Shown here piece after piece: positions 4,887 to 49,876 of a stretch of DNA of 56,595 nucleotides (position 1 is its first letter; the number at the start of each line of letters is the position of its first letter). Where the stretch lies: assembly GCA_021790335.1 (NCBI GenBank), contig JAJYEE010000017.1, positions 1-56,595 on the forward strand, written 5' to 3'. Made by a program: the position numbers and the translations under genes. This stretch comes from Pseudomonadota bacterium (GTDB taxonomy: Bacteria > Pseudomonadota > Gammaproteobacteria > Acidiferrobacterales > UBA6901). The notes under the pieces were generated by a model that did not search any database, was not told the DNA's origin, and saw only the letters and a list, made by a program, of their open reading frames with translations.

Positions 4887-4900
4887 TTGATTTATGTCAA
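4887..4900 (+). promoter_or_regulatory. FNR/Dnr box upstream of nnrS
   Basis: TTGATTTATGTCAA matches TTGAT-N4-(A/G)TCAA with one deviation from symmetry. The hexamer GATAAG (4923-4928, four of six -10 matches) begins exactly 22 nt after the box. This places the predicted transcription start at about 4935, just upstream of the nnrS ATG at 4957. Confidence 0.8.
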
Positions 4901-4956
4901 GGACAGCAGCGCGGGCGATGAGGATAAGTGGATACCCGCATCAGGAACCGGAAACC

Positions 4957-6210
4957 ATGACCACGTCCCGCGAAAGTGCCGCCGCGGCGCGCCCCTCAGG
5001 TATCTGGCACGCGTTCAGTGCCGCTCCTCATCGCATGTTCTTTCTGGCGGGTGCCGTACAGATCGTCCTGATTATGGGCTGGTGGGCAGTCACGCTGTCG
5101 GGCCTCTATGGAATCCTTCCTGCCGCCGGGACACGCCTGAATCCGGTCTGGGCGCATGCGTTCCTCATGATTTACGGCCTGTTCCCGTTCTTCATCTTCG
5201 GCTTTCTTGCCACAGTCTACCCCCGCTGGATGAGTACTCCTGCGCTCTCACGCCGTACCTATGTCAGCGCATCCCTGCTCATGGCGGGCGGCGGGGCGCT
5301 GTTTTGCCTGGGACTGTATGCCGGAACCGGGATTGTTGCGCTTGCCACCACCGTATTCCTGTGCGGCTGGCTGACCATCCTCATCGCACTGCTGCGGGTC
5401 TACCACGCGGCGGGACAGCACGGTCCGCACGAACGCATACTCAATCTGGCGCTTGCCGCGGGGGCCGTGGGCATCGCATGCTTTACAGTTGCCGCGATCA
5501 GCGGGAACCCGACGTGGTTTGCCGCCGCGCGCGAGTTCGGACTGTGGATGTTTCTCGTTCCCGTGGTGTTCGGCGTCAGCCACCGTATGATCCCGTTTTT
5601 CGGCAACAGCGTGCTGGAAAACTACCGCATCGTGCGTCCCGCATGGAGCCTGCCACTGGTGCTGGTGTGCGCAACCGGTCACGCCGTGCTTGTGCTCTCG
5701 GGCGAGCGGCGCTGGCTTTTCGTGTGCGACCTGCCGCTGATGCTGACCGGCCTCTACCATTCGGTCGCCTGGGGATTTCGCCGCAGTTTCCACGATCGCC
5801 TGCTGGCCATGCTTCATATCGCGTTTTCCTGGTTCACGCTGGCGACGGCGCTGTATGGCCTTCAGAGCCTGGTCCTGCTCGGCAGCGGACGGTTGCTGTT
5901 CGGCCGCGCACCGCTGCACGCCCTGGGTATCGGCTTTGTGCTGGGCATGGTGGTGGCCATGGTCTCGCGAGTGAGCCTCGGGCACTCGGGCAGGGCGCTG
6001 GTCGCCGATCACCTCACGTGGATCACGTTACTCGGCATCAACGTAACTGCGCTGCTGCGCCTGGCTGCGGCGCTGACCGGGCCGTTTTTTGTCTACGCTT
6101 ATCTTTTCAATCTCGCCGCCGCCGGAGCGTGGCTTGTCTGTCTTACGCCCTGGGTCTGGCGCTATGCGCCGATGTATCTGCGGCCACGCATCGATGGTCG
6201 CGCCGGATGA
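4957..6210 (+). CDS. nnrS: NnrS family haem- and copper-binding membrane protein
   Basis: 417 residues and about twelve membrane segments. NnrS proteins are linked to nitric oxide tolerance and are regulated by NO-responsive FNR-family factors. The N-terminal half has the family pattern ending in YPRWMS, the middle has VSHRMIPFFG, and the C-terminal half has HALGIGFVLGMVVAMVSRV followed by SLGHSGR, which is diagnostic. An open frame begins 21 codons earlier, but the ATG at 4957 is preferred: the upstream codons lie on top of the promoter. The next gene, a hemerythrin, has its own Dnr box at 6227, so nnrS is likely transcribed alone or with readthrough. Confidence 0.9.
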   Translation: MTTSRESAAAARPSGIWHAFSAAPHRMFFLAGAVQIVLIMGWWAVTLSGLYGILPAAGTRLNPVWAHAFLMIYGLFPFFIFGFLATVYPRWMSTPALSRRTYVSASLLMAGGGALFCLGLYAGTGIVALATTVFLCGWLTILIALLRVYHAAGQHGPHERILNLALAAGAVGIACFTVAAISGNPTWFAAAREFGLWMFLVPVVFGVSHRMIPFFGNSVLENYRIVRPAWSLPLVLVCATGHAVLVLSGERRWLFVCDLPLMLTGLYHSVAWGFRRSFHDRLLAMLHIAFSWFTLATALYGLQSLVLLGSGRLLFGRAPLHALGIGFVLGMVVAMVSRVSLGHSGRALVADHLTWITLLGINVTALLRLAAALTGPFFVYAYLFNLAAAGAWLVCLTPWVWRYAPMYLRPRIDGRAG

Positions 6211-6226: not shown

Positions 6227-6240
6227 TTGACATTGATCAA
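6227..6240 (+). promoter_or_regulatory. FNR/Dnr box upstream of the hemerythrin operon
   Basis: TTGACATTGATCAA fits TTGA(T/C)-N4-ATCAA. At the class II position 22 nt downstream lies CAAAGT (6263-6268), only three of six matches to a -10. The site lies between the nnrS stop codon and the ATG at 6303 and is not within a coding frame. Confidence 0.7.
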
Positions 6241-6302
6241 GGCGCACGCATGGCACTTGCGACAAAGTCAACTGCTGCAGCTCACGCGCAGAGGATGATT
6301 TC

Positions 6303-6749
6303 ATGGCGGATTCCATATATTCCGAACTCAGCACCGACCACCGGCGCTGCGATGATTTGCTCAGCGCAGCTGAAAACCAGGTTCACCGCGGCGACTGGCT
6401 TAGCGCAGGAAAAAGCCTTCAGGATTTTCTGAGTGCCACGCTTCGGCATTTCGAAGTTGAGGAGACCATTTTGTTTCCTGCGTTCGAAATGCGGACCGGA
6501 CAGGCCATGGGGCCGACACGCATCATGCGCACGGAGCACGAGCAGATGCGCGCCTTGTTCGAGGATCTGCAGCAGGACATCGGGTCACAGGATCGTGGAC
6601 ATTATCTGGGGTCATCGGAAACCCTGCTAACGCTGCTGCAGCAGCACAACCTCAAGGAAGAACAGGTTCTGTACCCGCTGGCCGACCGCGCACTCGCCAA
6701 CGAAGTTCTTGAGCTCCTGCAGCGCATGCGTGCCGACCGGCCAGCCTAG
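6303..6749 (+). CDS. Hemerythrin HHE-domain protein
   Basis: 148 residues, a single four-helix hemerythrin bundle. Di-iron ligand candidates are H13 (TDHRR), the HFEVEETILFPAFE segment, TEHEQM and QHNLKEEQVLYPL, the expected H...H-x3-E...H...H-x3-E arrangement. Such proteins bind oxygen or nitric oxide, or protect and repair iron-sulfur clusters. It is the first gene of a tight plus-strand operon (next start 6 bp after the stop) under a Dnr box, which favours an NO-related task. It has no signal peptide and is cytoplasmic. Confidence 0.9.
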   Translation: MADSIYSELSTDHRRCDDLLSAAENQVHRGDWLSAGKSLQDFLSATLRHFEVEETILFPAFEMRTGQAMGPTRIMRTEHEQMRALFEDLQQDIGSQDRGHYLGSSETLLTLLQQHNLKEEQVLYPLADRALANEVLELLQRMRADRPA

Positions 6750-6755
6750 GCGGCG

Positions 6756-8117
6756 ATGGCCGGTCAGCAACAGAAGCCGCAGACCTCCGCCAGCGTGCCG
6801 GGCGCGGCCGTTCGCATGGGCACTGCGACGCTTTCTCTCGAGCAGGCACCTCCCATCTCGGTTCCCCTGCGTTTCTTTCTGACCGCGCCGATGTTCGCGA
6901 TCGCTGCGGCGCTGGCGCTCCTGTCGCTGGGACCTGCGGTCTGGGCATCTCGCTGGTCAGCCGGAGCGCTTGCGGTAACACACCTGATGACCCTCGGCTT
7001 TCTCGCCATGGTTATGATAGGCGCCCTGATGCAGATGCTTCCGGTCGTCGCCGGCGCACCCGTTGCGCAGGCACGCAGGGTAGGCAGCAGGGTGCATGTT
7101 CTGCTCAGTCTGGGGACGCTGGCGCTTGCCGGTGGCTTCCTCTTTGCTCGGGCGCCGCTGCTGGCGCTGGCACTGGCGCTGCTCGCGCTCGCCTTCGTCG
7201 CTTTCATCGGCGCGGCTGCGGGAAGCCTGGTGCGCGCCCGCGCAGCGGCCATCACCGTGCGCGGCATTCGGCTTTCCATCGGCGCGCTCGGGGTAACAGT
7301 ATGTGTCGGTCTGCTGCTCGGGGCCGGACGCACCTGGCATCAGCCGCTGGCTGTGTCCAGACTTGCGGCTTTGCACCTGGCCTGGGGCCTGCTCGGCTGG
7401 GTCGGATTGCTGGTGGTTGGCGTTGGCTTCCAGGTTGTCCCCATGCTCCAGACCACACCTCACTATCCGCGCATCCTGACTGGCCACCTTACGCGGGCGA
7501 TCTTTGTGACGCTGCTGCTCTGGTCGTCAGCCCAGTGGCTGTCCGGTCATCTGACGCTGGCGCGAGAATCCGCTCCGGCGCTTGCGTCCTTGCTGGGTCT
7601 GGGTTATGCCGTGTTCGCAGCCACAACACTTGTGCTGCAGCAGCGGCGGCGGCGCGAGATGCCCGATATCACGGTGCGCTTCTGGCGTATCGGCATGACG
7701 AGCCTGCTCGCCTGCGCAGTGCTCGGCTGGATGGGACTATGGGGGCCGCGGGGCGTCTCGACATCGATCGAGCTCACCTGGGGTATACTCGCGATTCTCG
7801 GCTTTGGCGTGTCGGTGATCAACGGCATGCTTTACAAGATCGTACCGTTTCTTGTCTGGCTACACCTTCAGGCCAGTCCGGCCGGACGTGGCAAACTGCC
7901 CAATATGAAGCAGATCATTCCGGAACGACGCGCCGGCATTCAGTTCTGGCTGCATCTTGCCGCGCTGCTGCTGCTGGCGGGTGCGGCATGGATGCCCCGC
8001 CTGCTGGCCTATCCGGCGGCGGCGGCGCTCGGATTCTCAAACCTGCTTTTATGGTTGAACCTGGTCAGCGCCTGGCGCCTGTACAAGAGGATTCTGGCTG
8101 AGGGATTTCCCGGATGA
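6756..8117 (+). CDS. Polytopic NnrS-like membrane protein
   Basis: 453 residues with about twelve membrane segments. Three copies of a histidine-containing helix pattern resemble NnrS and the neighbouring half-size proteins: THLMTLGFLAMVMIGALMQM followed by LP, LHLAWGLLGWVGLLVVGVGF followed by QVVP, and TWGILAILGFGVSVINGMLY followed by KIVP. The histidine and the G-x-x-P turn suggest haem or metal binding as in haem-copper oxidase subunit I relatives. I do not know a published function. It is coupled to the hemerythrin upstream and overlaps the SirB-like gene by 4 bp (ATGA), so it belongs to the Dnr-controlled operon. Confidence 0.75.
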   Translation: MAGQQQKPQTSASVPGAAVRMGTATLSLEQAPPISVPLRFFLTAPMFAIAAALALLSLGPAVWASRWSAGALAVTHLMTLGFLAMVMIGALMQMLPVVAGAPVAQARRVGSRVHVLLSLGTLALAGGFLFARAPLLALALALLALAFVAFIGAAAGSLVRARAAAITVRGIRLSIGALGVTVCVGLLLGAGRTWHQPLAVSRLAALHLAWGLLGWVGLLVVGVGFQVVPMLQTTPHYPRILTGHLTRAIFVTLLLWSSAQWLSGHLTLARESAPALASLLGLGYAVFAATTLVLQQRRRREMPDITVRFWRIGMTSLLACAVLGWMGLWGPRGVSTSIELTWGILAILGFGVSVINGMLYKIVPFLVWLHLQASPAGRGKLPNMKQIIPERRAGIQFWLHLAALLLLAGAAWMPRLLAYPAAAALGFSNLLLWLNLVSAWRLYKRILAEGFPG

Positions 8118-8626
8118 ACTGGATCTTGCTAGTGCATGTTTCCTGCGTGATTCTGACTATCACAGGCTTTGTCTTGCGCGGCGTCTGGATGATGACGGGT
8201 TCACCGTTGCTCAAGGCACGGTGGGTGCGCATCGCGCCGCACGTAGTCGATACCCTGCTGCTTGCCGCCGGAGCCGAACTTGCCTTGCAGATCCACCAGT
8301 ATCCTTTCGTCAATGGCTGGCTCACCGCAAAGACTCTCGCGGTCGTCGCTTATATCGGATTGGGCACGGTTGCACTCAAGCGCGGCAGGACCCGGCGCAT
8401 ACGCGTGGCTGCGTGGCTCGGAGCGCTGCTCGTATTGGGCTATATCGTCGCCGTAGCAGTGGCGCGCAATCCGCTGCCGCTCGGTCAGGGATCCATTACG
8501 CTGGCTGCAAATATGCAGGAACAGAGCCCGGGGACGGGCTCACTCGCCGATCACAAAAAGTCCAGACCCGCTGGGCCGTCACAGGCACCGGATTCGCCTG
8601 CATCAGCTGCCGACGTGACACCATGA
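8114..8626 (+). CDS. SirB family membrane protein
   Basis: 170 residues. It matches the SirB family pattern: a short N-terminus, LLVHVSCVILTITGFVLRGV in the first helix, PHVVDTLLLAAGAELALQIH, and NGWLTAKTLAVVAYIGLG. About four membrane helices are followed by a polar tail of 45 residues. SirB was named from a Salmonella invasion regulator locus, but the family has no firm molecular function. Both ends overlap neighbours by ATGA, showing translational coupling with the NnrS-like protein and the DUF2249-hemerythrin protein. Confidence 0.85.
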   Translation: MNWILLVHVSCVILTITGFVLRGVWMMTGSPLLKARWVRIAPHVVDTLLLAAGAELALQIHQYPFVNGWLTAKTLAVVAYIGLGTVALKRGRTRRIRVAAWLGALLVLGYIVAVAVARNPLPLGQGSITLAANMQEQSPGTGSLADHKKSRPAGPSQAPDSPASAADVTP

Positions 8627-9381
8627 ACGTCAAGACGCGCTATCTCGATTTGCGCTCCGCCCCACCCGGCATGCCGGGGCATACCTACGCGTTCTATGCG
8701 CTCAGGGACCTGGAGCCGGGCACGGAGATGGTCCTGATTTCCGCCGAGGATCCGGCACTGCTGCTCAAACAGCTGCAGCTGCAGCTTCGCAATCGTCTTT
8801 GGTGGCAGTGCGTACGTGAGCAACAGATTTGGAGAGTGTCCATACGCAGGCGCGAAGAGATCGAGGCATCAACACTTCAGGATATCCTCAGCCGCGATCA
8901 TGAGCGGCTGGACGCATTGTTGTTGCGGGCGCTGATGCGATTGCGCGCCCGCGGGGCTTCCGCGGCAACGCCAGAAGTGATGGAATTCCTCGAAGGGCTG
9001 CGTCGCCACATCGCCGTGGAAAACAATCTGCTCGCGCCAGCCTTTCCGTCGCTGTACGGACCGGAAGAGGACAACCCTGTCACCACGATGCTGCGTGAAC
9101 ACGAGGACATCGCCAAACAGACGATCATGATCGAGGAACTGTTCCGTGAGGCAGATCCGGATCCGGTCGAGGCGGAAATCTGGTTCGGTCTGCTGGCGGC
9201 GGCTCTGTCCAAACACGAGTATCGCGAGGAAACCCGCCTTTTCCCGCTATGGGATACCCTGCTCAGCCGAAATGCGGATGCAGACGCCCTGATTCAGGGG
9301 GTCAGGGCTGGCCTTATCCCGCAACCGAGCGGCGTTTCTGCCACGCAGGCCCGGCAGCAGCCACAGCCGGACTCCGGATAA
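8623..9381 (+). CDS. DUF2249 domain fused to hemerythrin domain
   Basis: 252 residues. Residues 1-75 form a DUF2249 (TusA/SirA-like fold) domain, with YLDLRS near the start, EMVLISAEDPALLLKQLQ in the middle and a strand ending RVSIRRRE. Residues 85-230 form a hemerythrin bundle: SRDHERLD, RHIAVENNLLAPAF, REHEDIAKQ and KHEYREETRLFPLWD. The ATG at 8623 is chosen because it overlaps the preceding stop codon; the frame is open further upstream only as a shadow. The last gene of the operon. DUF2249-hemerythrin pairs occur in denitrifiers and near NO reductases, so an NO or iron-sulfur role is inferred. Confidence 0.85.
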   Translation: MNVKTRYLDLRSAPPGMPGHTYAFYALRDLEPGTEMVLISAEDPALLLKQLQLQLRNRLWWQCVREQQIWRVSIRRREEIEASTLQDILSRDHERLDALLLRALMRLRARGASAATPEVMEFLEGLRRHIAVENNLLAPAFPSLYGPEEDNPVTTMLREHEDIAKQTIMIEELFREADPDPVEAEIWFGLLAAALSKHEYREETRLFPLWDTLLSRNADADALIQGVRAGLIPQPSGVSATQARQQPQPDSG

Positions 9382-10543: not shown

Positions 10544-11872
10544 CTACCACGCGAACCATCCGTACAGGTACGTGTAATTATCGTTCGAGACGCTGGTCGT
10601 TGATCCGTAGTACTTGGTGTAGCCGCGGTACTGGAGTCCCAGCTTGGTGTTCTCCCAAGGCAGGTAATCCACCTCGGCGGTCCAGTAAGCCGTATCTGGA
10701 CTGTTCGCCGCGCTGTTGGTCCACACGGGATAGAGGACTTTGTCGGTGGATCCGCTCCAGTTGTCGTAGCCCAGCGCCACTTCATACATGCGCTGGAAGT
10801 GCATCTCCGCATCGAGACGGGCATCGTTCAGATGATCGCTCGACTTGGCCGCCAAGGCGGTCCCGGTACCGTAATTCTGGCTCTCATGCAGGTACTGGGC
10901 GTGCAGCGCCAGCAGATTGGCTCCGAGCGGCATCTCGTACTGCGTATCGACGCCAACATCCGTGTACTTGTTTTCGACCCCAGGGGATTCCAGGAACTTG
11001 GTCTGCATCCCGAAGGTGCCGATCTCCCAATACGCATTGTCGAACTGGTGCTGCCACGCCAGCCGCCAGTAGGGCGCAAGGCCATTTATAGTGGCACCGT
11101 TAGCGTATGTCGGTTCGGGCAGCGTCCCCTGAACGGCAGAACGATAAAAAGAGAGCCCGGCATACCATTGGTTATTGAGCAGCGTATAGGCACCGAGACC
11201 AGCGACGTTGCCGCCCAGACTGTCGAGCATGGAACCAGGCGGACCGCCGGCAGCCCCATTGACGTATTTGTCATAGGGATGCTCGGCCGAGTGGATCCAG
11301 GGGAATCCCCAGGCCGGCGTGTCGTTCCACACGTCCTCGACGGACGGATTGTTGTTCAGCGTCAAACCGTAGATTTCATCCTGGCCGCCCAGGGTGAAAT
11401 GGTTGGCGTAGCGGACATCGGTGTTGTCCCAAGTAAAGCTCGAAGCTGCATCCTTCTGCGCATAGGTGATCTGCATGAACGTACCCATGTGCGGCGAAAT
11501 CTCGCCGGCGTAGAACAGGCTCAGCTGACGCGGAAATTCGACGTTGTTGTTCTGCTTGCTCGGTGCCCTCTTACCTTCGTTCGACATTCCGACCTGCATC
11601 ATCACCGACAGCGGCGCGCCCGCATTGATCTTGAGCGCATTACCGCCAGCCGCTTCGATCTGCCGCAGTCCCGTAAGCGTATACCCGTTCAGCTTGAACA
11701 GACGCCCGAACGGCGTGAGTTCCGGGAAAATCGTGTGGCAGACTTCGCAGGCAAGACCCGTCTGGCGCGCGTAGCTCGGCACCGCGAGCGCCTCCGGCGA
11801 GGACAACGCCAGCAGGGCGAAAGCGCCCCCGCCGGCGAGGATCAAACTTCTGGACATGGAAAACTTGGACAT
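10544..11872 (-). CDS. Outer-membrane porin with N-terminal c-type haem, Cyc2-like
   Basis: 442 residues. A signal peptide (cleavage after residue 30, EALA/VPS) is followed by SYARQTGLACEVCHTIFPEL and TPFGRLFKLNGY, with the haem motif C42-E-V-C45-H46. The rest alternates short polar and aromatic strands (for example YWRLAWQHQ, YWEIGTFGM, KLGLQYRGYTKYY) and ends in YGWFAW, a terminal aromatic typical of outer-membrane beta-barrels. The single N-terminal CxxCH followed by P-x-L-T-x-F-G-R and a barrel is the design of Cyc2 iron oxidases and relatives. Iron oxidation is not proven, because the family also occurs in non-iron bacteria. A Dnr box lies 162 bp upstream. Confidence 0.8.
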   Translation of the reverse strand: MSKFSMSRSLILAGGGAFALLALSSPEALAVPSYARQTGLACEVCHTIFPELTPFGRLFKLNGYTLTGLRQIEAAGGNALKINAGAPLSVMMQVGMSNEGKRAPSKQNNNVEFPRQLSLFYAGEISPHMGTFMQITYAQKDAASSFTWDNTDVRYANHFTLGGQDEIYGLTLNNNPSVEDVWNDTPAWGFPWIHSAEHPYDKYVNGAAGGPPGSMLDSLGGNVAGLGAYTLLNNQWYAGLSFYRSAVQGTLPEPTYANGATINGLAPYWRLAWQHQFDNAYWEIGTFGMQTKFLESPGVENKYTDVGVDTQYEMPLGANLLALHAQYLHESQNYGTGTALAAKSSDHLNDARLDAEMHFQRMYEVALGYDNWSGSTDKVLYPVWTNSAANSPDTAYWTAEVDYLPWENTKLGLQYRGYTKYYGSTTSVSNDNYTYLYGWFAW

Positions 11873-12350
11873 TGTTAATCCCCCTTGCTTCGTTGACAGA
11901 ATCTGACCGACGACGTCGCACCCACTCCCTCACCCGCGACGCACATCCCAAATCCGGAAATTTCTTTAGGCCGTTCGCCACATAGCGGCAGCCACTTTGC
12001 CGGCGACAATACATGACCCAAAAAGTTCAGGCTTTGACCCACGTCAACATTGCCATGGGTATTTCACTGCAAATTCCGGGTCTATACCGGTCTGCCCGGA
12101 ACACTTAAAATTAGACCAACAGGAAGGTTGTACGCAGGCGGACAGACCGATACACGCATTCCCGCTTTCAGGTCCATTGGCAATCGCCGACACGCCGCAT
12201 GCCGGGAACTCGATCGGGAATCCGGAAACTGCTCAGTCACGACAGCTGTTGACAGCGATTGCCAAACAGCCTGCGGAGACCTGCCGCCTTGTGCGGCCGC
12301 CCCCCGGACAGTCGTCCGGTCGGCTCGCAAGGACATTCCGGTATGACGCG
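11873..12350. other. Promoter region of the Cyc2-like gene and spacer
   Basis: This 480-bp spacer lies between two minus-strand genes. It holds the Dnr box at 12034-12047 and the leader of the Cyc2-like gene. I recognise no gene in it. Confidence 0.5.
12034..12047 (-). promoter_or_regulatory. FNR/Dnr box upstream of the Cyc2-like gene
   Basis: TTGACCCACGTCAA is a symmetric TTGAC-N4-GTCAA palindrome. Toward the Cyc2-like gene, TATTGT (12011 to 12006, four of six -10 matches) begins exactly 22 nt after the box. This predicts transcription from about 11999 with a leader near 127 nt. Confidence 0.75.
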
Positions 12351-18484: not shown

Positions 18485-19195
18485 CTATCCTAAGAAGCGC
18501 AGCACACTGTCTTCCACCGGAGTCGAGCCGTTCACTTTCGGCCACAGCACCGGCCAGAGCCTCAGGCAGAACAGCAGCAGCGCAATCCAGGCGAGGCCAC
18601 CGCCGCTGAGCGCCAGCCAGCGCCAGCCGGAAACGAACCCCGTGACCAGCATCAACAATCCGGCGTGGGCGAGGCCGAGCTGCCACCACACGAGCGAGCC
18701 GCCACGAATGGGATTGCCGGTAAACCGCGGCAGCATGTGCTCGCCGAGCGCATACACCATGAACGTCATGAACCCGAGCGTGAACAGATGCAGGGGTGCA
18801 ACACGCGCGAAACCGGAAAGGAAAAACGAACCATTGACGGCAAGAAATCCCCCGGCAGCAAAAAGATAGGCCAGCGAGGAATGCACGGCAACGCGACCGC
18901 TGAACCCCATGCTGAGTCCGACATGGTGCGCCTGCGTGGCAGCCCTGGGCGGCGCGGCGCCGACGATGGCAAGTGCCTGCTGCCTGCTCTGCACGCCGAT
19001 CGCCACCAGCTTGCCGTCGACCACCAGCGCCGGGATGGTCTTCAGCCGCAACCGGCTGACCAGTTCCTTGCCCTCGGACTGGCCCATGTCCACGACGTCA
19101 AACTCGAACTCGCGCTCTTCCGACACTTCGCGCCAGACTTTTTCAGCCTGGTGGCAGGAGGCACACCAATCCGAAACCAGGAGCTGGACTTTCAT
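18485..19195 (-). CDS. Thioredoxin domain fused to NnrS-like membrane half
   Basis: 236 residues. Residues 1-80 form a cytoplasmic thioredoxin/glutaredoxin-like domain with the redox pair C11-A-S-C14 and a cis-proline at P55 (TIPAL). From about residue 104 four hydrophobic helices follow, with HLFTLGFMTFMVYALGEHML followed by PRFTGNP, including H136 and H153. The same pattern is found in the 19680 protein and, less clearly, in NnrS. CASCH reads like a c-type haem site, but there is no signal peptide, so a thioredoxin is preferred. GGAGAG precedes the ATG. A membrane-tethered redox protein near NO-response genes; the substrate is unknown. Confidence 0.8.
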   Translation of the reverse strand: MKVQLLVSDWCASCHQAEKVWREVSEEREFEFDVVDMGQSEGKELVSRLRLKTIPALVVDGKLVAIGVQSRQQALAIVGAAPPRAATQAHHVGLSMGFSGRVAVHSSLAYLFAAGGFLAVNGSFFLSGFARVAPLHLFTLGFMTFMVYALGEHMLPRFTGNPIRGGSLVWWQLGLAHAGLLMLVTGFVSGWRWLALSGGGLAWIALLLFCLRLWPVLWPKVNGSTPVEDSVLRFLG

Positions 19196-19229
19196 GCGCG
19201 CTCTCCGGCCGAACCGGCTGCGTCCGGGA

Positions 19230-19676
19230 CTAATCCTGGCAGCGCATGCACTGGACGTCGTACCGGTCTATCCATTTATGCAACGCCGCGATCGCTGTCG
19301 CTCCCGTGTGCAGGCGCGCCATTGCCTTTGCCGGGTCATCCGGGCGCATGACCACGAGCCAGGCGTCACCATAGGGAGAGACATTGACCAGCCCGGGCTT
19401 GGCCGCAACCTGATCGTTGATGCGCAGGATCTCGCCGTCAAAGGGGGCCGGTATGCCTCCGGCCCACTTGCCGGATTCGAGCCGCGCCACTGGCTTGCCG
19501 CTGGCCCGATGCGCTCCCGGTTTCTTGAAAAATATGTACTGCACGCGACCGGCCATGGTCTGGGCTGCATCCGTGATGCCGAGCGTGTAGGTGCCGTCGG
19601 CTTCCGGACGAACCCACACGTAATCGAGGTCATAGTACAGGTCTTCCGGCAATTCGCAGCCTCGGTATTCAGACAT
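19230..19676 (-). CDS. GcvH-like lipoyl carrier protein with CxxC tail
   Basis: 148 residues. The core aligns with glycine cleavage H proteins: LESGKWAGGIPAPFDGEI places the lipoyl-lysine at K70 (as in ESVKA of true GcvH), followed by LVNVSPYGDAWLVV. There are no gcvT or gcvP genes here, and the end carries an extra CMRC pair (C143, C146), so this is not the ordinary glycine cleavage carrier. It begins 3 nt after the stop of the mini NnrS-like gene, and the thioredoxin fusion follows 34 nt later. A lipoyl dithiol that the thioredoxin could reduce is the obvious inference; lipoate-binding proteins of sulfur oxidation (LbpA) are an alternative comparison. Confidence 0.8.
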   Translation of the reverse strand: MSEYRGCELPEDLYYDLDYVWVRPEADGTYTLGITDAAQTMAGRVQYIFFKKPGAHRASGKPVARLESGKWAGGIPAPFDGEILRINDQVAAKPGLVNVSPYGDAWLVVMRPDDPAKAMARLHTGATAIAALHKWIDRYDVQCMRCQD

Positions 19677-19679
19677 GGT

Positions 19680-20075
19680 TCAACCCGCAGGTCCGTGCAC
19701 TTTGACGGTAAGCATGATGTTGAGCGCAAACATCCCGATGCCGATCCAGCTGACCATGCCGCCGATCAGCACCAGAAGGTTGAACGTCCCGAGCCATCCC
19801 GCCGACATCAACCACAATCCGCCATTGGACACGTACAGCTGCCAGTTCGCCAGGCGTTCCGAAAACAACGGGTTGCCGGAGAACCGTGGCAGGACATGCA
19901 GGCCAATGCCGTAGATCATCATGGCGATAAAGCCCAGGAGCATGATATGTCCGTGCAGGCGCGCAACATCGCCCGGTATCAGCCCCGGATCGGACAACCA
20001 TGTGATGCCTATCAATCCACCGAGCAGCGCGTAGGCGAGACTCAGGGTAACGAAAAGACGGTTTCGTCTATGCAT
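19680..20075 (-). CDS. Small NnrS-like four-helix membrane protein
   Basis: 131 residues and four predicted membrane helices. ARLHGHIMLLGFIAMMIYGI followed by GLHVLPRFSGNP matches the helix of the thioredoxin fusion at 18485 nearly motif for motif (H-x-x-x-LGF...G-x-H-x-LPRF-x-GNP). Histidines 41, 43 and 60 could bind haem or copper as in haem-copper oxidase subunit I relatives. It is the first gene of the operon. Its promoter has the Dnr box at 20126-20139 centred 41.5 nt upstream of a predicted start. A membrane partner of the lipoyl protein is likely, but the function is not known. Confidence 0.75.
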   Translation of the reverse strand: MHRRNRLFVTLSLAYALLGGLIGITWLSDPGLIPGDVARLHGHIMLLGFIAMMIYGIGLHVLPRFSGNPLFSERLANWQLYVSNGGLWLMSAGWLGTFNLLVLIGGMVSWIGIGMFALNIMLTVKVHGPAG

Positions 20076-20125: not shown

Positions 20126-20139
20126 TTGACTTCGGTCAA
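20126..20139 (-). promoter_or_regulatory. FNR/Dnr box between dnr and the NnrS-like operon
   Basis: TTGACTTCGGTCAA. On the minus strand TATTCT (20103 to 20098, four of six matches) begins exactly 22 nt after the box, so transcription of the 20075 gene would start at about 20091, 16 nt before its ATG. On the plus strand the same box lies 31 nt from the dnr ATG, too close for class II activation, and could repress or autoregulate dnr. Confidence 0.75.
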
Positions 20140-20169: not shown

Positions 20170-20883
20170 ATGAAAGACATGGTTAAACAATTCGACGAAC
20201 TGCGCCGTGCGCATCTGTTTGCCCAGGCTGACGACGCGCAGCTTGCGACGCTCGCACGCGTCATGCAGGAGGTCGAACTTGCGCCCGGGGATACGCTGTT
20301 TACCCACGGCCAGGCGGCCGAGCGCTTTTTCTTCGTGCGCTCGGGACGGGTCAAATTGTTCCGAATATCACCCGAAGGACAGGAGAAGATCATCGAAGTC
20401 GTCGAACCCGGACAGACCTTCGCGGAGGCGGTAATGTTCATGGGCAGCCAGGGACACTATCCGGTGAACGCCCAGGCAATGACCGACAGCCGGCTGTACG
20501 CGTTTGACCAGAAGCAGTTTCTCAAGGTCCTATCCGAGTCCTCGGAGATCTGCCTCGGCATGCTGTCAGCAATGAGCCGCCGGCTGCACATGCTCATCAA
20601 CCAGATCGACGGGCTGACTCTGCAGAATGCGACTTACCGCCTGGTGATGTATCTGCTCGAGCATGCGCCCCAGGGTCTGGCCGAAACCACGGAAATCGAG
20701 CTCACGACCCCCAAAGGGGTGATCGCCTCGCAACTGGCTATCCAGCCGGAGACTTTTTCGCGCATCCTTGCCAAACTGAAGCGGCTCGGCCTCATAGAGG
20801 TGAACGGAAACCACATTACGCTGCGCAACCTGCGCGGGTTGCGCAGCTTGGCCTATGTGCCGGTTCCCGACGATACTGCATGA
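20170..20883 (+). CDS. dnr: Dnr-type Crp/Fnr family transcription regulator
   Basis: 237 residues: cyclic-nucleotide-like beta-roll, long dimer helix, C-terminal winged helix. There is no N-terminal cysteine cluster (one cysteine in all), unlike FNR/Anr, so it probably senses nitric oxide through haem as Dnr does. The recognition helix QPETFSRILAKLK has the E-x-x-S-R pattern that reads TTGAT half-sites, which fits the five boxes in this window. The ATG at 20170 is chosen; ATG at 20179 is possible, since neither has a clear ribosome site. It heads an operon with moaB and moaC and is divergent from the NnrS-like operon. Confidence 0.88.
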   Translation: MKDMVKQFDELRRAHLFAQADDAQLATLARVMQEVELAPGDTLFTHGQAAERFFFVRSGRVKLFRISPEGQEKIIEVVEPGQTFAEAVMFMGSQGHYPVNAQAMTDSRLYAFDQKQFLKVLSESSEICLGMLSAMSRRLHMLINQIDGLTLQNATYRLVMYLLEHAPQGLAETTEIELTTPKGVIASQLAIQPETFSRILAKLKRLGLIEVNGNHITLRNLRGLRSLAYVPVPDDTA

Positions 20884-22464: not shown

Positions 22465-25400
22465 ATGACCAGCAACAACAGCGTGAGCGATTTCAGACCA
22501 GGCCTGCCGGGCCTCACGTACGATGATCTGTTTCAACAGGAAGGCCTGGAGAAGCTCGACCGCGAGTTTCTGGAGCGTCTCGCGCAGTGCGATGCGGCGC
22601 GTCACAGCCAACTGCTCGCCTATCGGGCTGGCGGGGAGTTCAGCGCACTGCAGGTGAGCGAACTGCTTCTGGCCACCGGGCCGGTGCTCGAAGAATTCCT
22701 GTCCGAACTGTTTGGCATCCAGGACGCCCTTGAGCGCTCGCGCCTGCACACTCTTGCGCATGATCCGGTGTTTGCTTTCAAAAAACTCTTCGTTCAGCGC
22801 CGTGCCCGCCGCCGCCTGCTCGCCAAGGAGGAGATCGAGCCGTTCGTCGAGCTCGACGCCGCGCTGGACCGTGCGCTGCGGCCGGCGGGACAGAACGACT
22901 CCGATCGCGAGCTCGCAATCGCAAAGTGGGGACAGCAATTACTCGCGGACCAGCAGTCAAACCAGGATGCGATTGAAATGCTCACGCGCTGGTGCATTCA
23001 GGCGATCAAGACCGCCGAAGGCCAGGCCTGCGTTCATGGCTGGGCGAGCTTCCGGCTGCCTCAAGGGATCGACCACGGCCGTCTCGTACCGGTTGTCCCG
23101 GTGGCCGCAGATCCTATGGGTCGCGTCGAAGGTCCGCAGAGCGACCGTCGCCGGCGTGACGGTTTCAGACTGACCGATCTGCGCATGCAGCCCCGCCAGA
23201 TCCAGAACGAGATTCATTATTGCATCTACTGCCACGATCATGATGGCGACTTCTGCTCCAAGGGGTTTCCGGAAAAAAAGGGCGAGCCGGAAAAGGGTCT
23301 CAAGGTCAATCCTCTGGGCGTGACGCTTACGGGCTGCCCGCTCGACCAAAAGATCTCTGAGATGCACGTAATGAAAAGGGATGGCCGCACGATCGCCGCC
23401 CTTGCCATGATCACCGTGGACAACCCCATGTGCGCCGCCACGGGCCACCGCATCTGCAACGATTGCATGAAGGCCTGCATTTACCAAAAGCAGGATCCGG
23501 TTAACATTCCGCAGGCAGAGACCGGCATTCTTACCGATGTTCTAAACCTTCCCTGGGGCGTTGAGATTTACGATCTGCTCATACGCTGGAACCCGCTGCG
23601 GCGGCGCCAGTGGCTGCCCAGGCCCTATAACGGACTGAAGGTGTTGATCGCAGGCATGGGGCCAGCAGGTTTCACCCTGGCCCACCACATGCTCATGGAA
23701 GGGTTTGCCGTCGTGGGCATCGAGGGTCTCAAGATCGAACCTTTGCCTGAGGAACTTCTGCGGCACCCCATCCGCGATTACTCCTCCCTCGAGGAACCGC
23801 TCGACACGCGGGTGATGGCAGGCTTCGGCGGTGTGGCGGAATACGGCATCACGAACCGCTGGGACAAGAATTTTCTAAGGCTTATTTATTTAAGCCTGGC
23901 GCGTCGACCGCGGTTCCAAGTCTTCGGAGGCGTGCGCTTCGGCGGGACCCTCACGGTCGAGGACGCATGGCATCTGGGATTCGACCACGTCGCCATCGCT
24001 ATCGGTGCGGGCCTGCCGCAGGCGCTGCCGGTACCCGGGAGCCTCGCGCCCGGCATGCGTCAGGCCAATGATTTTCTCATGGCGCTGCAGCTGACCGGCG
24101 CAGCCAAGGCCGCCAGCCTCGCCAATCTGCAGGTGCGCCTGCCAGCCGTCATCGTCGGCGGCGGCCTCACCGGCATAGATACGGCGACTGAGGTCGGTGC
24201 TTACTACATAGCTCAGACGGAGAAGACGCTCGAGCGCTACGAACTGCTATGCGACAGTCTCGGGGAGGAGGGGGTGCGTAGCGGGCTGGATGAAGGTGGC
24301 CGCATTATCCTTGACGAGTTGGTCGCCCACGGTCGGCTGGTGCGCGCAGAACGGGTACGGGCCGCAGCCACGGAAACGCAGCCGAATTTCGAGAAACTGC
24401 TGCGTGCCTGGGGCGGGGTGACTGTCGCGTACCGGCGCGGAATGAACGAGTCTCCGGCATACACGCGCAACCACGAAGAGATCATCAAGGCCCTGGAAGA
24501 AGGAATTTATTACGCCGAAGGGCTGGATCCGAAGGAGGCACTGACCGACCGTTATGGCCAGGTCGAGGCGCTGCGGTGCCGGCAACTCAGGCGCAACGCG
24601 GACGGAAGCTGGGAGGACACCGGCGAGGAAATCTCGGTACCCGCGCGATCTATACTCGTGGCGACCGGGGCGCGACCGAATGTCGCGTATGAATTCGAGC
24701 ATCGCGGGCATTTTGACAAGGAGCGCGGCCATTATCAGACCTTCCACGACGCCGGTGGCCGCTTGATTGCTGTGCCGGTCGCGGCGCACTGCAAGATCGA
24801 CGATTTCGGACCGTTTACCTCCTACGGCGTGGACGGCCGGCGCGTAAGCTTTCTTGGAGATACGCATCCGGTGTTTCACGGCAGCGTCGTGAAGGCAGTG
24901 GCCTCCGGGAAACGCACTTATTCGAAAATACTCACGGCTCTGGGTGAACGCGCAGGCCAACGCGGCGATGCACAGGAGTACGGGCGCTTCCGTGGGAAGC
25001 TCGATGAGCTACTGACCGCGAGGGTAGAGAGGGTTGAACGTCTTGCCAGGACGGTGGTAGAGCTAACCGTACGCGCGCCGATGGCGGCGCGACGATTCCG
25101 TCCTGGCCAGTTTTTCCGTCTGCAGAACTTCGAGACGCGCGCGCCATTCGTGGACGGAACCCGGCTGCAGTCCGAGGCGCTTGCCCTGTACGGCGCAAAG
25201 GTCGACAAGGACCGCGGACTGGTGTCTGTCGTCGTCATCGAACAGGGAGCCAGCTCACACCTCGTTGCAACACTGAAGCCCGGAGACCCGGTGACACTGA
25301 TGGGTCCGACCGGTGTGCGTGCAACAATTCCCGATGGCAACGAAACGGTCATGATCGTAGGCGGCGTGCTCGGTACCGCGTATCTGCGATCGGTGGGCAC

Positions 25401-26004
25401 AGCGCTGCGCAGCGCCGGCAACCGCGTGCTCTATGTTGCCGTCTTTCCCTCCGCGGATGCCATTATCTGCCGTGACGAAGTGGAGGATGCGGCAGATTGC
25501 ATCCTGTGGATCGCCGAACGAGGCGATCCGCCCGCCACGCGCCGCCCGCAGGATCTGGCGGCAAGCGGCGACCTGGTAGAGGTCTTGGTTCGCTACGCAA
25601 CGGGCGCGCTCGGGGCTGCGGGTGATGCGCCGCCCGTGCGGCTGGAGGATATCGACAGGCTCTTGATCATCGGATCAAGCTGCCTGGTGCGGCGCCTGCG
25701 CGATGCACGCGGCCATGAACTCAAAGGTTTTCTGGTCAAGAATCCCGAGACCACCGCCTCCATCGGCACACCGATGCAGTGCATGCTTAAGGGGGTCTGC
25801 TCCCAATGCCTTCAGTGGCAGATCGACCCGCATACCGGACGGCGCACCAAGGCGGTGTTTGCCTGTTCATGGCAGGACCAACCCGCGGACATCGTCGATC
25901 TCGACAATCTGGACGAGCGCCTGTCACAGAACCGGGTACAGGAATATCTGACCGGTTTGTGGCTAAATCATCTGCTCGCCAAGCACAAGCTGCAGCGTGT
26001 GTGA
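22465..26004 (+). CDS. Single-chain iron-sulfur flavoprotein (NfnAB/GltD-PyrK-like fusion)
   Basis: 1179 residues. The first 390 residues are helical and carry cysteines C253, C256, C264, C291, C323, C331, C334 and C338, candidate iron-sulfur ligands. A GltD/NfnB-like pyridine nucleotide-disulfide module follows: FAD site LIAGMGPAGFTLAHH (G397-x-G399-x2-G402) and a second nucleotide site VIVGGGLTGIDTATE. The last 300 residues resemble the PyrK/NfnA ferredoxin-NADP reductase type (RFRPGQFFRLQ, GPTGVRATIP) and end with C1106-x5-C1112-x2-C1115-x18-C1134. This is the layout of NADH/NADPH:ferredoxin transhydrogenases in one chain. Electron partner unknown. It follows the moa genes and DUF2892 but has its own start 200 bp away. 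Confidence 0.75.
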   Translation: MTSNNSVSDFRPGLPGLTYDDLFQQEGLEKLDREFLERLAQCDAARHSQLLAYRAGGEFSALQVSELLLATGPVLEEFLSELFGIQDALERSRLHTLAHDPVFAFKKLFVQRRARRRLLAKEEIEPFVELDAALDRALRPAGQNDSDRELAIAKWGQQLLADQQSNQDAIEMLTRWCIQAIKTAEGQACVHGWASFRLPQGIDHGRLVPVVPVAADPMGRVEGPQSDRRRRDGFRLTDLRMQPRQIQNEIHYCIYCHDHDGDFCSKGFPEKKGEPEKGLKVNPLGVTLTGCPLDQKISEMHVMKRDGRTIAALAMITVDNPMCAATGHRICNDCMKACIYQKQDPVNIPQAETGILTDVLNLPWGVEIYDLLIRWNPLRRRQWLPRPYNGLKVLIAGMGPAGFTLAHHMLMEGFAVVGIEGLKIEPLPEELLRHPIRDYSSLEEPLDTRVMAGFGGVAEYGITNRWDKNFLRLIYLSLARRPRFQVFGGVRFGGTLTVEDAWHLGFDHVAIAIGAGLPQALPVPGSLAPGMRQANDFLMALQLTGAAKAASLANLQVRLPAVIVGGGLTGIDTATEVGAYYIAQTEKTLERYELLCDSLGEEGVRSGLDEGGRIILDELVAHGRLVRAERVRAAATETQPNFEKLLRAWGGVTVAYRRGMNESPAYTRNHEEIIKALEEGIYYAEGLDPKEALTDRYGQVEALRCRQLRRNADGSWEDTGEEISVPARSILVATGARPNVAYEFEHRGHFDKERGHYQTFHDAGGRLIAVPVAAHCKIDDFGPFTSYGVDGRRVSFLGDTHPVFHGSVVKAVASGKRTYSKILTALGERAGQRGDAQEYGRFRGKLDELLTARVERVERLARTVVELTVRAPMAARRFRPGQFFRLQNFETRAPFVDGTRLQSEALALYGAKVDKDRGLVSVVVIEQGASSHLVATLKPGDPVTLMGPTGVRATIPDGNETVMIVGGVLGTAYLRSVGTALRSAGNRVLYVAVFPSADAIICRDEVEDAADCILWIAERGDPPATRRPQDLAASGDLVEVLVRYATGALGAAGDAPPVRLEDIDRLLIIGSSCLVRRLRDARGHELKGFLVKNPETTASIGTPMQCMLKGVCSQCLQWQIDPHTGRRTKAVFACSWQDQPADIVDLDNLDERLSQNRVQEYLTGLWLNHLLAKHKLQRV

Positions 26005-47893: not shown

Positions 47894-48201
47894 GCGCACC
47901 CCAGCGCGGCAATGGCCATGGCAACGGATCTGGGCAGGCACCACCGCCTGCGCCTATGGCGTTTCCCTGCCGCATCGATATCAAGGCGATGGGGCGCCAG
48001 AGCATCCGGTTCGAAGCTCTGGTACAGAGCATCGTATCGCGCCATGTCCAGCCGCAGGATCTGCACGCCGTTAGAGCGCGACCCAGCCGCAAAAACAGGT
48101 ATGTCGCGCTCACTCTGACCATCACCGCGCATAGCCGCGCGCAACTCGACGCGATCTACCAGGACCTTTCCGCTTGCGACGACGTTCTGGTGGCCCTTTA
48201 G
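47890..48201 (+). CDS. YbeD/DUF493 family protein
   Basis: 103 residues. A glycine- and proline-rich N-terminus of 20 residues precedes the DUF493 fold: MAFPCRIDIKAMGRQS, HAVRARPSRKNRYVALTLTI and LDAIYQDLSACDDVLVAL. The ferredoxin-like fold is thought to be regulatory in the lipoate operon, where this gene precedes lipB in most proteobacteria. Confidence 0.93.
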   Translation: MSAPQRGNGHGNGSGQAPPPAPMAFPCRIDIKAMGRQSIRFEALVQSIVSRHVQPQDLHAVRARPSRKNRYVALTLTITAHSRAQLDAIYQDLSACDDVLVAL

Positions 48202-48251
48202 CGATGAACCAGGGTCCGCACCGCATGCCCGCGAAGTGTCCAAGGGGATAC

Positions 48252-48902
48252 ATGGAGCCGGATGGGCCAAAGGTGCGCAGGCTCGGGCTTGTAGAGTACC
48301 GTGAAACCTGGCTCGCGATGCGCGCTTTCACCGAGCGGCGCGAGGCGCACGATGCAGACGAAATCTGGCTGCTCCAGCACCCTCCGGTATACACGATGGG
48401 TTTCAATGCAAAGCATGGAGCGCCCGCCGACGAGCGCGCCATTGGAGTGGTCCAGACCGACCGCGGCGGAGACATCACTTATCATGGGCCGGGCCAGCTG
48501 GTGGCCTATGTCCTTGTGGATCTGCGACGCCGCGGACTTGGCCCCAAGGGGCTCGTACGCATCCTCGAGCAGGCTGTAATCGATCTCCTGCACCGCTACG
48601 GAATCACCGGATGCCGGCGTGAAGGCGCGCCCGGCGTTTATGTCGGACAGAGCAAGATCGCGCAACTCGGCTTGCGTATCCGCCGTGGTGCCAGCTATCA
48701 CGGTCTCTCTTTCAATGTCGATATGGACATCGGCCCTTTCAGACGCATCGATCCCTGCGGCTATCCAGGCCTGGAAGTCACGCAGCTGGCCGACTTTGTA
48801 CCCAAACCGGACCTCAGCGAGGTCGAATCGGCACTGCTTGACACGCTGTACGGAAATCTGGGTTACAATGAAAAACAATCCAGTGTCGTGGAACTTCCAT
48901 AA
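48252..48902 (+). CDS. lipB: Octanoyl-[ACP]:protein octanoyltransferase LipB
   Basis: 216 residues. It moves octanoate from acyl carrier protein to lipoyl domains. [39 protein letters not shown] with the catalytic lysine, and [13 protein letters not shown] with the catalytic cysteine are present. The ATG at 48252, with AAGGGG just upstream, is chosen among several in-frame starts because the family N-terminus begins close by. The stop codon overlaps lipA by one base. Confidence 0.95.
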
Positions 48903-49876
48903 TGCGTCATGACAATCAGGGCACCGATGGGATGGACGGCTTCAATTCGAAGCCGAACCCCCTCAAAGGCGCATCCAAGACCGCGCGCATTCCGATAAAA
49001 GTCACGCCGGCCGTCGAACGCCTGCCCAAGCCACGCTGGCTGCGTGCGGGATCGCCCAATACACCCGAGGTGGCACGCCTGAAGTCGATTCTGCGTTCCA
49101 ACGGGCTGCATACGGTCTGTGAAGAGGCGGGGTGCCCGAACATCGGCGAATGTTTCGGCCACGGCACGGCTACGTTCATGATTATGGGCGATATCTGCAC
49201 GCGCCGCTGCCCGTTCTGCGACGTTGCGCACGGCCGGCCCCGGGCTCTCGATCCGCAGGAACCATTGCACCTTGCCCTGACGGTTGCCCGAATGGGGCTG
49301 AGGTTCGTGGTGGTTACGTCGGTGGACCGGGACGATCTGCGCGACGGCGGGGCCGGACATTTCGTGGCCTGCATCCGGTCGCTGCGCGCGCACAATCACG
49401 GAATCGGCATTGAAATCCTCGTGCCGGACTTTCGCGGACGGATGGACAAGGCGCTGGATACGCTGGATGAGGCACCTCCGGATGTATTCAACCACAACCT
49501 TGAGACCGTTCCGCACCTCTATAAGGCGGCGCGCCCTGGTGCCGACTATGGTCATTCCCTAGAACTTCTGCGCAGGTTCAAGGAGCGCCACCCCGGAATT
49601 CCTACCAAGTCCGGACTGATGGTGGGTCTGGGCGAGACGAATCAAGAAATCGAGGCTACGATGCGCGACCTGCGTGACCATGGATGCGAGATGCTGACTA
49701 TAGGACAGTATCTGCAGCCAAGCCGTGATCACCATCTGCCAGTACGTCGCTACGTAACACCCGAGGAATTTAAGCAGTTCGCGGCCGTCGGCTCCGGAAT
49801 GGGATTCAGCAATGTGGCAAGCGGGCCGCTGGTGCGCTCTTCGTACCATGCCGAGCAGCAGGCACACAGATCATGA
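48902..49876 (+). CDS. lipA: Lipoyl synthase LipA
   Basis: 324 residues. A radical-SAM enzyme that inserts two sulfurs into octanoyl-lysine. The auxiliary cluster cysteines are [12 protein letters not shown]; the radical-SAM motif is CTRRCPFC (C-x3-C-x2-C). The chain has SDRDDL-like [36 protein letters not shown] and the serine near the end (VRSSYHAE). LipA may supply the lipoyl group of the GcvH-like protein at 19230. Confidence 0.97.

Follow-up and report, generated by a model that had tools for sequence, protein, structure and literature searches.

A DNR-box operon for an LbpA-type lipoyl carrier, a thioredoxin and oxidase-like membrane units in sulfur-oxidising bacteria

Lipoate is known from the 2-oxoacid dehydrogenases, from glycine cleavage and, since 2018, from sHdr-dependent sulfur oxidation. 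Which task may then be fulfilled by a putative lipoyl carrier whose gene is located between the genes of two membrane proteins, one of them carrying a thioredoxin domain, behind an operator of the type recognised by nitric oxide (NO) regulators? This constellation is found in a gammaproteobacterial stretch of DNA of 56,595 nucleotides, referred to here as the window, i.e. the whole stretch that was analysed.

Operon, DNR box and wider regulon

The locus consists of three genes on one strand, an operator and a divergently oriented regulator gene:

18485-19195, minus strand: TrxNnr, 236 residues, a thioredoxin (C11-A-S-C14) followed by an oxidase-like unit of four transmembrane helices (4-TM unit) with the invariant residues H136 and H153
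19230-19676, minus strand: GcvH3, a 148-residue LbpA-type lipoyl carrier with C7, the putative lipoyl lysine K70 (ESGKW) and a C-terminal CxxC
19680-20075, minus strand: miniNnr, a free 4-TM unit of 131 residues with invariant H41-x-H43 and H60 in HxHxMLLGF..YG..LHVLPRFSG
20126-20139: DNR/FNR-type operator TTGACttcgGTCAA, a perfect inverted repeat lying between operon and regulator gene, 50 bp before the first start codon of the operon
20170-20883, plus strand: DNR-type Crp/Fnr regulator, divergent from the operon (the ORF opens at 20074, the likely start is 20170)

The sequence-only reading had described three adjacent, tightly spaced genes behind a Dnr box, and both the reading frames and a perfect box at 20126 are indeed present. 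By ORF coordinates the gaps amount to 3 bp between miniNnr and GcvH3 and 34 bp between GcvH3 and TrxNnr, and the three genes constitute one operon behind the DNR box. In Pfam searches GcvH3 matches PF01597 (4e-32), its C-terminal tail reading C-M-R-C. TrxNnr matches Thioredoxin_3 (2e-10) and, weakly and below the cut-off, NnrS (3.6e-5; 23.7 bits for PF05940, cut-off 28). For miniNnr no NnrS match is listed, and a weak match to COX1 (3e-6) also stays below the cut-off.

Among solved structures DNR from P. aeruginosa is by far the nearest to the regulator (3dkw, 158 bits, compared with 93 for the best match to any other protein), and the operon promoter carries a perfect TTGAYNNNNRTCAA operator. 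Match and box together support the earlier assignment of the operon to a DNR-type, i.e. presumably NO-responsive, regulator and hence to a DNR regulon; DNR-type regulators could also answer to signals other than NO. An FNR-type oxygen sensor was rejected, as the regulator resembles DNR and has no FNR cysteine cluster. The DNR box has been given as TTGATnnnnATCAA, with nnrS being a recurrent gene of NO regulons (PMC1274295). Five perfect TTGAYNNNNRTCAA boxes are present in the window, 0.08 being expected from base composition, and all of them fall between 2061 and 20126. Apart from the operator of the operon these are, with their genes:

2061: DNR box on the SCO1/COX15 side, near one end of the window
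4887-6210, plus strand: DNR box at 4887 and full-length NnrS (ORF 4894-6210), wider regulon
6227-9381, plus strand: DNR box at 6227, HHE hemerythrin (6303-6749), 12-TM protein (6756-8117) and DUF2249-hemerythrin (8221-9381), wider regulon
10544-12047, minus strand: secreted CxxCH protein (10544-11872) with a DNR box in front of it at 12034-12047, wider regulon

The true start of NnrS is probably later than 4894, because the DNR box overlaps the start of the ORF. With hemerythrin, DUF2249 and NnrS-like proteins as well as DNR itself, the link to genes of NO and N-oxide metabolism that had been proposed holds. The secreted protein comprises 442 residues, has one CxxCH near its N-terminus, is porin-like in the remaining part and yields no Pfam or family match. 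On the other side of the operon (22465-26004) an 1179-residue flavoprotein is encoded, a PRK06567-like fusion of glutamate synthase beta and ferredoxin reductase, preceded by a YgaP-like TM gene.

The carrier and its conserved neighbourhood

GcvH3 had been read as a GcvH-like protein with a lipoyl lysine and a CxxC motif. Both motifs are there, but the kinship is of the LbpA type. The source genome (3.08 Mb, 97.6% complete) contains four GcvH-like genes, i.e. an ordinary gcvH on contig C64 beside gcvT and gcvP, LbpA1 and LbpA2 on contig C103 within an sHdr cluster that also encodes HdrA/B/C-like proteins, DsrE and LipS1, and GcvH3 on contig C100. The absence of gcvT and gcvP stated previously therefore applies to the window only. 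GcvH3 is not linked to the sHdr cluster and hence is an LbpA-type paralogue that does not belong to the sHdr locus. A tree was built from 64 sequences, for which the program warned of long branches meeting at this point; GcvH3 falls into neither the LbpA1 nor the LbpA2 clade there and forms its own (93/84). LbpA2 is the sister clade (98/95), LbpA1 follows, and GcvH is placed outside.

Conserved N- and C-terminal cysteines mark LbpA proteins and are missing from GcvH (PMC6067878). The LbpA marks (N-terminal GC, ESGKW, C-terminal Cys) occur in all 47 GcvH3 sequences and the cysteines in none of six GcvH. The C-terminal CxxC is likewise present in 47/47 GcvH3, and it is found in 0/16 LbpA2, 0/21 LbpA1 and 0/6 GcvH. 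Moreover, GcvH3 scores below the curated GcvH cut-offs (84 vs 115.85 bits for TIGR00527, 108 vs 117 for NF002270). Judged by tree and motifs, GcvH3 is a third clade of LbpA lipoate carriers, located outside the sHdr loci, and the parallel to LbpA drawn before turns out to be one of kinship. The genes lipB and lipA do lie in the window (48174-49876), as had been pointed out, but the weight given to them was misleading: they belong to the common mreB-mrdA-rodA-rlpA-lipB-lipA neighbourhood, and their presence therefore says little.

A scan of one genome per species (84,980 species), based on exact short peptide patterns only, revealed 42 GcvH3 loci with 55-98% identity over nearly the whole length and, in addition, one truncated match. 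The carriers are alpha-, beta- and gammaproteobacteria, among them Sulfuriferula, Thiobacillus, Sideroxydans, Acidithiobacillus sulfuriphilus, Acidiferrobacter, Acidihalobacter and Rhodobacteraceae. A thioredoxin gene is present in 41 of the 42 loci, either fused to the 4-TM unit or separate (~80 residues), a DNR-type gene in 32, a hemerythrin gene in 27, and at least one of DNR, hemerythrin and an NnrS-like 12-TM gene in 37; as many of the loci stem from metagenome assemblies and are akin to one another, the counts are not independent trials. A perfect TTGAYNNNNRTCAA box occurs in the 650 bp preceding GcvH3 in 30 of the 42 loci (~0.015 expected per locus), and in the Acidiferrobacter group a second DNR box precedes the separate thioredoxin gene. 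Hemerythrin and 12-TM protein, which are more than 10 kb away in the window, adjoin GcvH3 and thioredoxin in two loci (L070, L091). Fifteen sHdr loci with LbpA1/LbpA2 served as control and gave no thioredoxin or DNR match within ~5 kb on each side. The genome search for gene set and neighbours thus argues against a linkage by chance, to which the sequence-only reading had been exposed, and supports a real, conserved functional unit. Strains with named genomes are among the carriers (Sulfuriferula multivorans TTN, Acidithiobacillus sulfuriphilus CJ-2), and the module is therefore open to testing.

In Acidiferrobacter-type genomes a second lipoate-protein ligase gene lies beside GcvH3 (e.g. L064:7891-8913), divergent from the DNR gene (12/42 named loci). 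This ligase is 60-91% conserved within the group and 30-37% identical to sLpl(AB) of sHdr clusters; ligase genes are thus found in the sHdr clusters of the kin and, in one group, next to GcvH3. The dedicated ligase is the best indirect evidence for lipoylation of GcvH3 and points to a lipoate supply of its own.

Several further genes were noted around these loci. A conserved gene for dihydrolipoamide dehydrogenase is lacking at the GcvH3 locus, a point against the thiol module proposed below. In one locus of the metagenome-assembled genome YF4.bin20 a possible electron donor, namely a flavoprotein similar in type to the disulfide reductases Lpd and mercuric reductase (L092:4828-6441), is encoded ~4 kb from GcvH3, and this neighbour is not conserved in loci other than L092. 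In several lineages a membrane gene of the SirB family is repeatedly located close to DNR, thioredoxin, GcvH3 or NnrS (L070:7529-7972; L082:8085-8480; L131:17014-17472). Genome G004 has a second thioredoxin-4TM fusion (L138:8486-9466), ~70% identical, on another contig and without GcvH3, and the 20 kb analysed contain no perfect DNR box.

The distribution among close relatives was surveyed in 61 genomes, i.e. the window's own and 60 relatives, 23 of which have GcvH3. A clear NirS is encoded in none of these 23 and NirK in four, and about half of the other kin have NirS; NO arising from the bacteria's own denitrification was therefore rejected. The window's genome yielded neither NirS nor NirK, nor any Hcp, globin or NOR-like oxidase; a weak match to ODP (flavodiiron-like, 26 bits) was observed. 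Nine relatives, mostly with NirS, have a locus that consists of DNR, box and thioredoxin, without GcvH3 and mini unit, and several of the nine share YgaP and the 1179-residue flavoprotein as neighbours. The flavoprotein, with the YgaP-like gene before it, is thus conserved beside DNR-thioredoxin in denitrifying relatives too (loci L131-L134). DNR-thioredoxin looks like the older core, to which the carrier and the oxidase-like units may have been added in NirS-less sulfur oxidisers.

Membrane units

The fused and the free 4-TM unit are homologous (HHalign 99.4%, 33% identity), and each of them also hits the 12-TM protein (6756-8117); the E-values of the 4-TM profiles are only a guide, because the database is small. 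An AlphaFold model of TrxNnr (pLDDT 80, pTM 0.53) exhibits a thioredoxin domain and four long helices. The thioredoxin domain is N-terminal and would, by the positive-charge rule, be cytoplasmic. The modelled 4-TM unit superposes on subunit I of haem-copper oxidases (e.g. bovine 334-478) with Z 12-15 and an rmsd of 2-3 Å over 122-133 residues, which is moderate evidence, as helical bundles can reach Z 13 by chance.

In oxidases the HxH motif of subunit I holds haem ligands. Independently of the superposition, the miniNnr profile matches H41/H43 to the HxH found in cbb3 and NOR-like subunits, and the HGH of miniNnr is identical to that of a NOR-like protein (L143). Of the two histidines TrxNnr retains a single, invariant one at the haem-ligand position, whereas miniNnr keeps HxH. 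A complete subunit I comprises 12 TM helices and all haem and metal ligands; here each protein has four helices. A PDB sequence search with the miniNnr profile gave no match, and Foldseek returned only weak oxidase matches for the miniNnr model, which is poor, notably in helix 2. With moderate confidence the 4-TM units may be said to resemble helices of subunit I of haem-copper oxidases and NO reductases (NOR). The histidine-rich membrane half described earlier is thus borne out as an oxidase-like part with invariant histidines, and of the designation 'mini NnrS' the membrane unit stands but the name does not, 4-TM unit of the haem-copper oxidase/NOR type being the better description.

The 12-TM protein itself (453 residues) has no Pfam or NCBIfam match and is 47% identical to a protein of locus L091 (6571-7833). 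The miniNnr profile hits it more than once, as if it were built of repeated 4-TM units. It likely represents an unnamed family of the NO regulon.

Possible function and relation to known systems

Identity and regulon of the module are well supported. The most likely reading, which we consider fairly probable, is that the operon encodes a DNR-controlled thiol module which counteracts NO and S-nitrosation in sHdr-type sulfur oxidisers. NO would bind to the haem of DNR, which in turn would activate the box at 20126. An sLpl(AB)-type ligase or a dedicated one would attach lipoate to K70 of GcvH3, and the swinging dihydrolipoyl arm, together with the CxxC tail, might trade disulfide or S-nitroso groups with thioredoxin. 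In this lineage thioredoxin would be tethered to the membrane via its oxidase-like 4-TM unit, the latter pairing with the free unit and possibly binding haem b, so that thiol equivalents could pass to, or from, a membrane pool. The net effect may be the denitrosation or repair of thiols and sulfur carriers, perhaps also the reduction of NO, in bacteria without recognised NO-consuming enzymes. In favour of this reading, lipoic arms are known targets of reactive nitrogen species, and a thiol reductant recovers part of the lost activity (PMC9974485).

The chief rival is that GcvH3 serves sHdr as a spare LbpA inducible by NO or anoxia and is kept reduced by thioredoxin, i.e. DNR would replace the usual carrier by one able to withstand, or to repair, the damage done to the lipoyl arm by NO, the target being sulfur oxidation and not NO. 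We consider this rather unlikely, although several findings favour it. GcvH3 is the sister group of LbpA2, the window's own genome has sHdr with LbpA1 and LbpA2, and a close sHdrB homologue is found in 22/28 GcvH3 genomes, a co-occurrence that fits a role of the carrier in sulfur oxidation equally well. Moreover, the block of lipoic arms by reactive nitrogen species counts for the spare LbpA as well. Two genomes, however, G027 (99% complete) and G003 (96%), both of which may be incomplete, have GcvH3 in the absence of LbpA1/LbpA2 and a close sHdrB, G027 even retaining the dedicated ligase (L051); GcvH3 is missing from the sHdr loci analysed, and CxxC tail and thioredoxin neighbour are features of GcvH3 and not of LbpA1/2.

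Further-reaching, and in our view improbable, is a membrane complex that would reduce NO with electrons from thiols, or act as a redox complex responsive to NO, composed of the two NOR/oxidase-type 4-TM units, one of which brings its own cytoplasmic thioredoxin, and fed by the lipoylated LbpA-type carrier, in which electrons would flow from dihydrolipoate via thioredoxin and haem to NO. Still less credible is a redox or metal chaperone similar to the SCO/CcdA helpers, where thioredoxin and lipoyl carrier would keep the cysteines of haem or copper sites reduced during the assembly of NnrS-like proteins or oxidases: the TM units are oxidase-like, and SCO1 and COX15 are encoded near one end of the window behind the DNR box at 2061, but they are 15 kb off and no conserved neighbours of GcvH3, the thioredoxin domain would reside on the cytoplasmic side, and lipoyl carriers have no known part in such assembly. 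The reading of GcvH3 as an ordinary GcvH serving glycine cleavage, or as a hub that relays lipoyl or octanoyl groups in the manner of GcvH of B. subtilis, can be dismissed despite the PF01597 match, since the NCBIfam cut-offs are missed, the genome has a separate gcvT-gcvH-gcvP set, GcvH3 groups with LbpA in the tree, and LbpA1/2 are unable to replace GcvH as hub (PMC6067878).

In the open-licence literature we found no description of the gene set, its regulation or the thioredoxin/oxidase-like fusion, nor of an LbpA tied to nitric oxide and thioredoxin or of thioredoxin in DNR regulons. Whereas the carrier family is known in the wider sense, gene set, regulation and fusion are apparently new. 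Returning to the thiol module, the gene set suggests an undescribed thiol-based way for sulfur oxidisers to cope with NO. Lipoate would gain another job through a third carrier of the LbpA type that is controlled by DNR and has its own thioredoxin, in one group also a ligase of its own, and sulfur oxidation would be tied to nitrosative stress. This may account for the survival of sulfur oxidisers that lack a recognised NO reductase in the presence of nitrite and NO. Additionally, the 4-TM units offer minimal relatives of oxidase subunit I for study.

In the mycobacterial DlaT-AhpD-AhpC system a lipoyl protein passes electrons to a thioredoxin-like protein and on to a peroxynitrite-reducing peroxiredoxin. 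The module is similar in that a lipoyl arm would feed a thioredoxin-like protein in nitrosative defence, but the proteins are unrelated and an oxidase-like membrane unit is present instead of a peroxiredoxin. With subunit I of haem-copper oxidases and NOR the module shares a TM unit that superposes on its helices and, in miniNnr, the HxH motif, the differences being four helices per protein and an incomplete ligand set. DNR/NnrR regulons have the same type of box, a DNR-type regulator and genes for NnrS and hemerythrin among their accessory proteins, but lipoyl carrier and thioredoxin are not listed there as members (PMC1274295), and the GcvH3 genomes among the window's kin have no clear NirS. 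Finally, GcvH3 resembles LbpA1 and LbpA2 of sHdr in its GcvH-like family, ESGKW, the N- and C-terminal cysteines and the sulfur-oxidising hosts (PMC6067878, PMC10332631); in contrast to these, it lies outside the sHdr loci analysed, has a second C-terminal cysteine (CxxC) and, in one group, its own ligase, and is combined with DNR control, a partner thioredoxin and oxidase-like membrane units.
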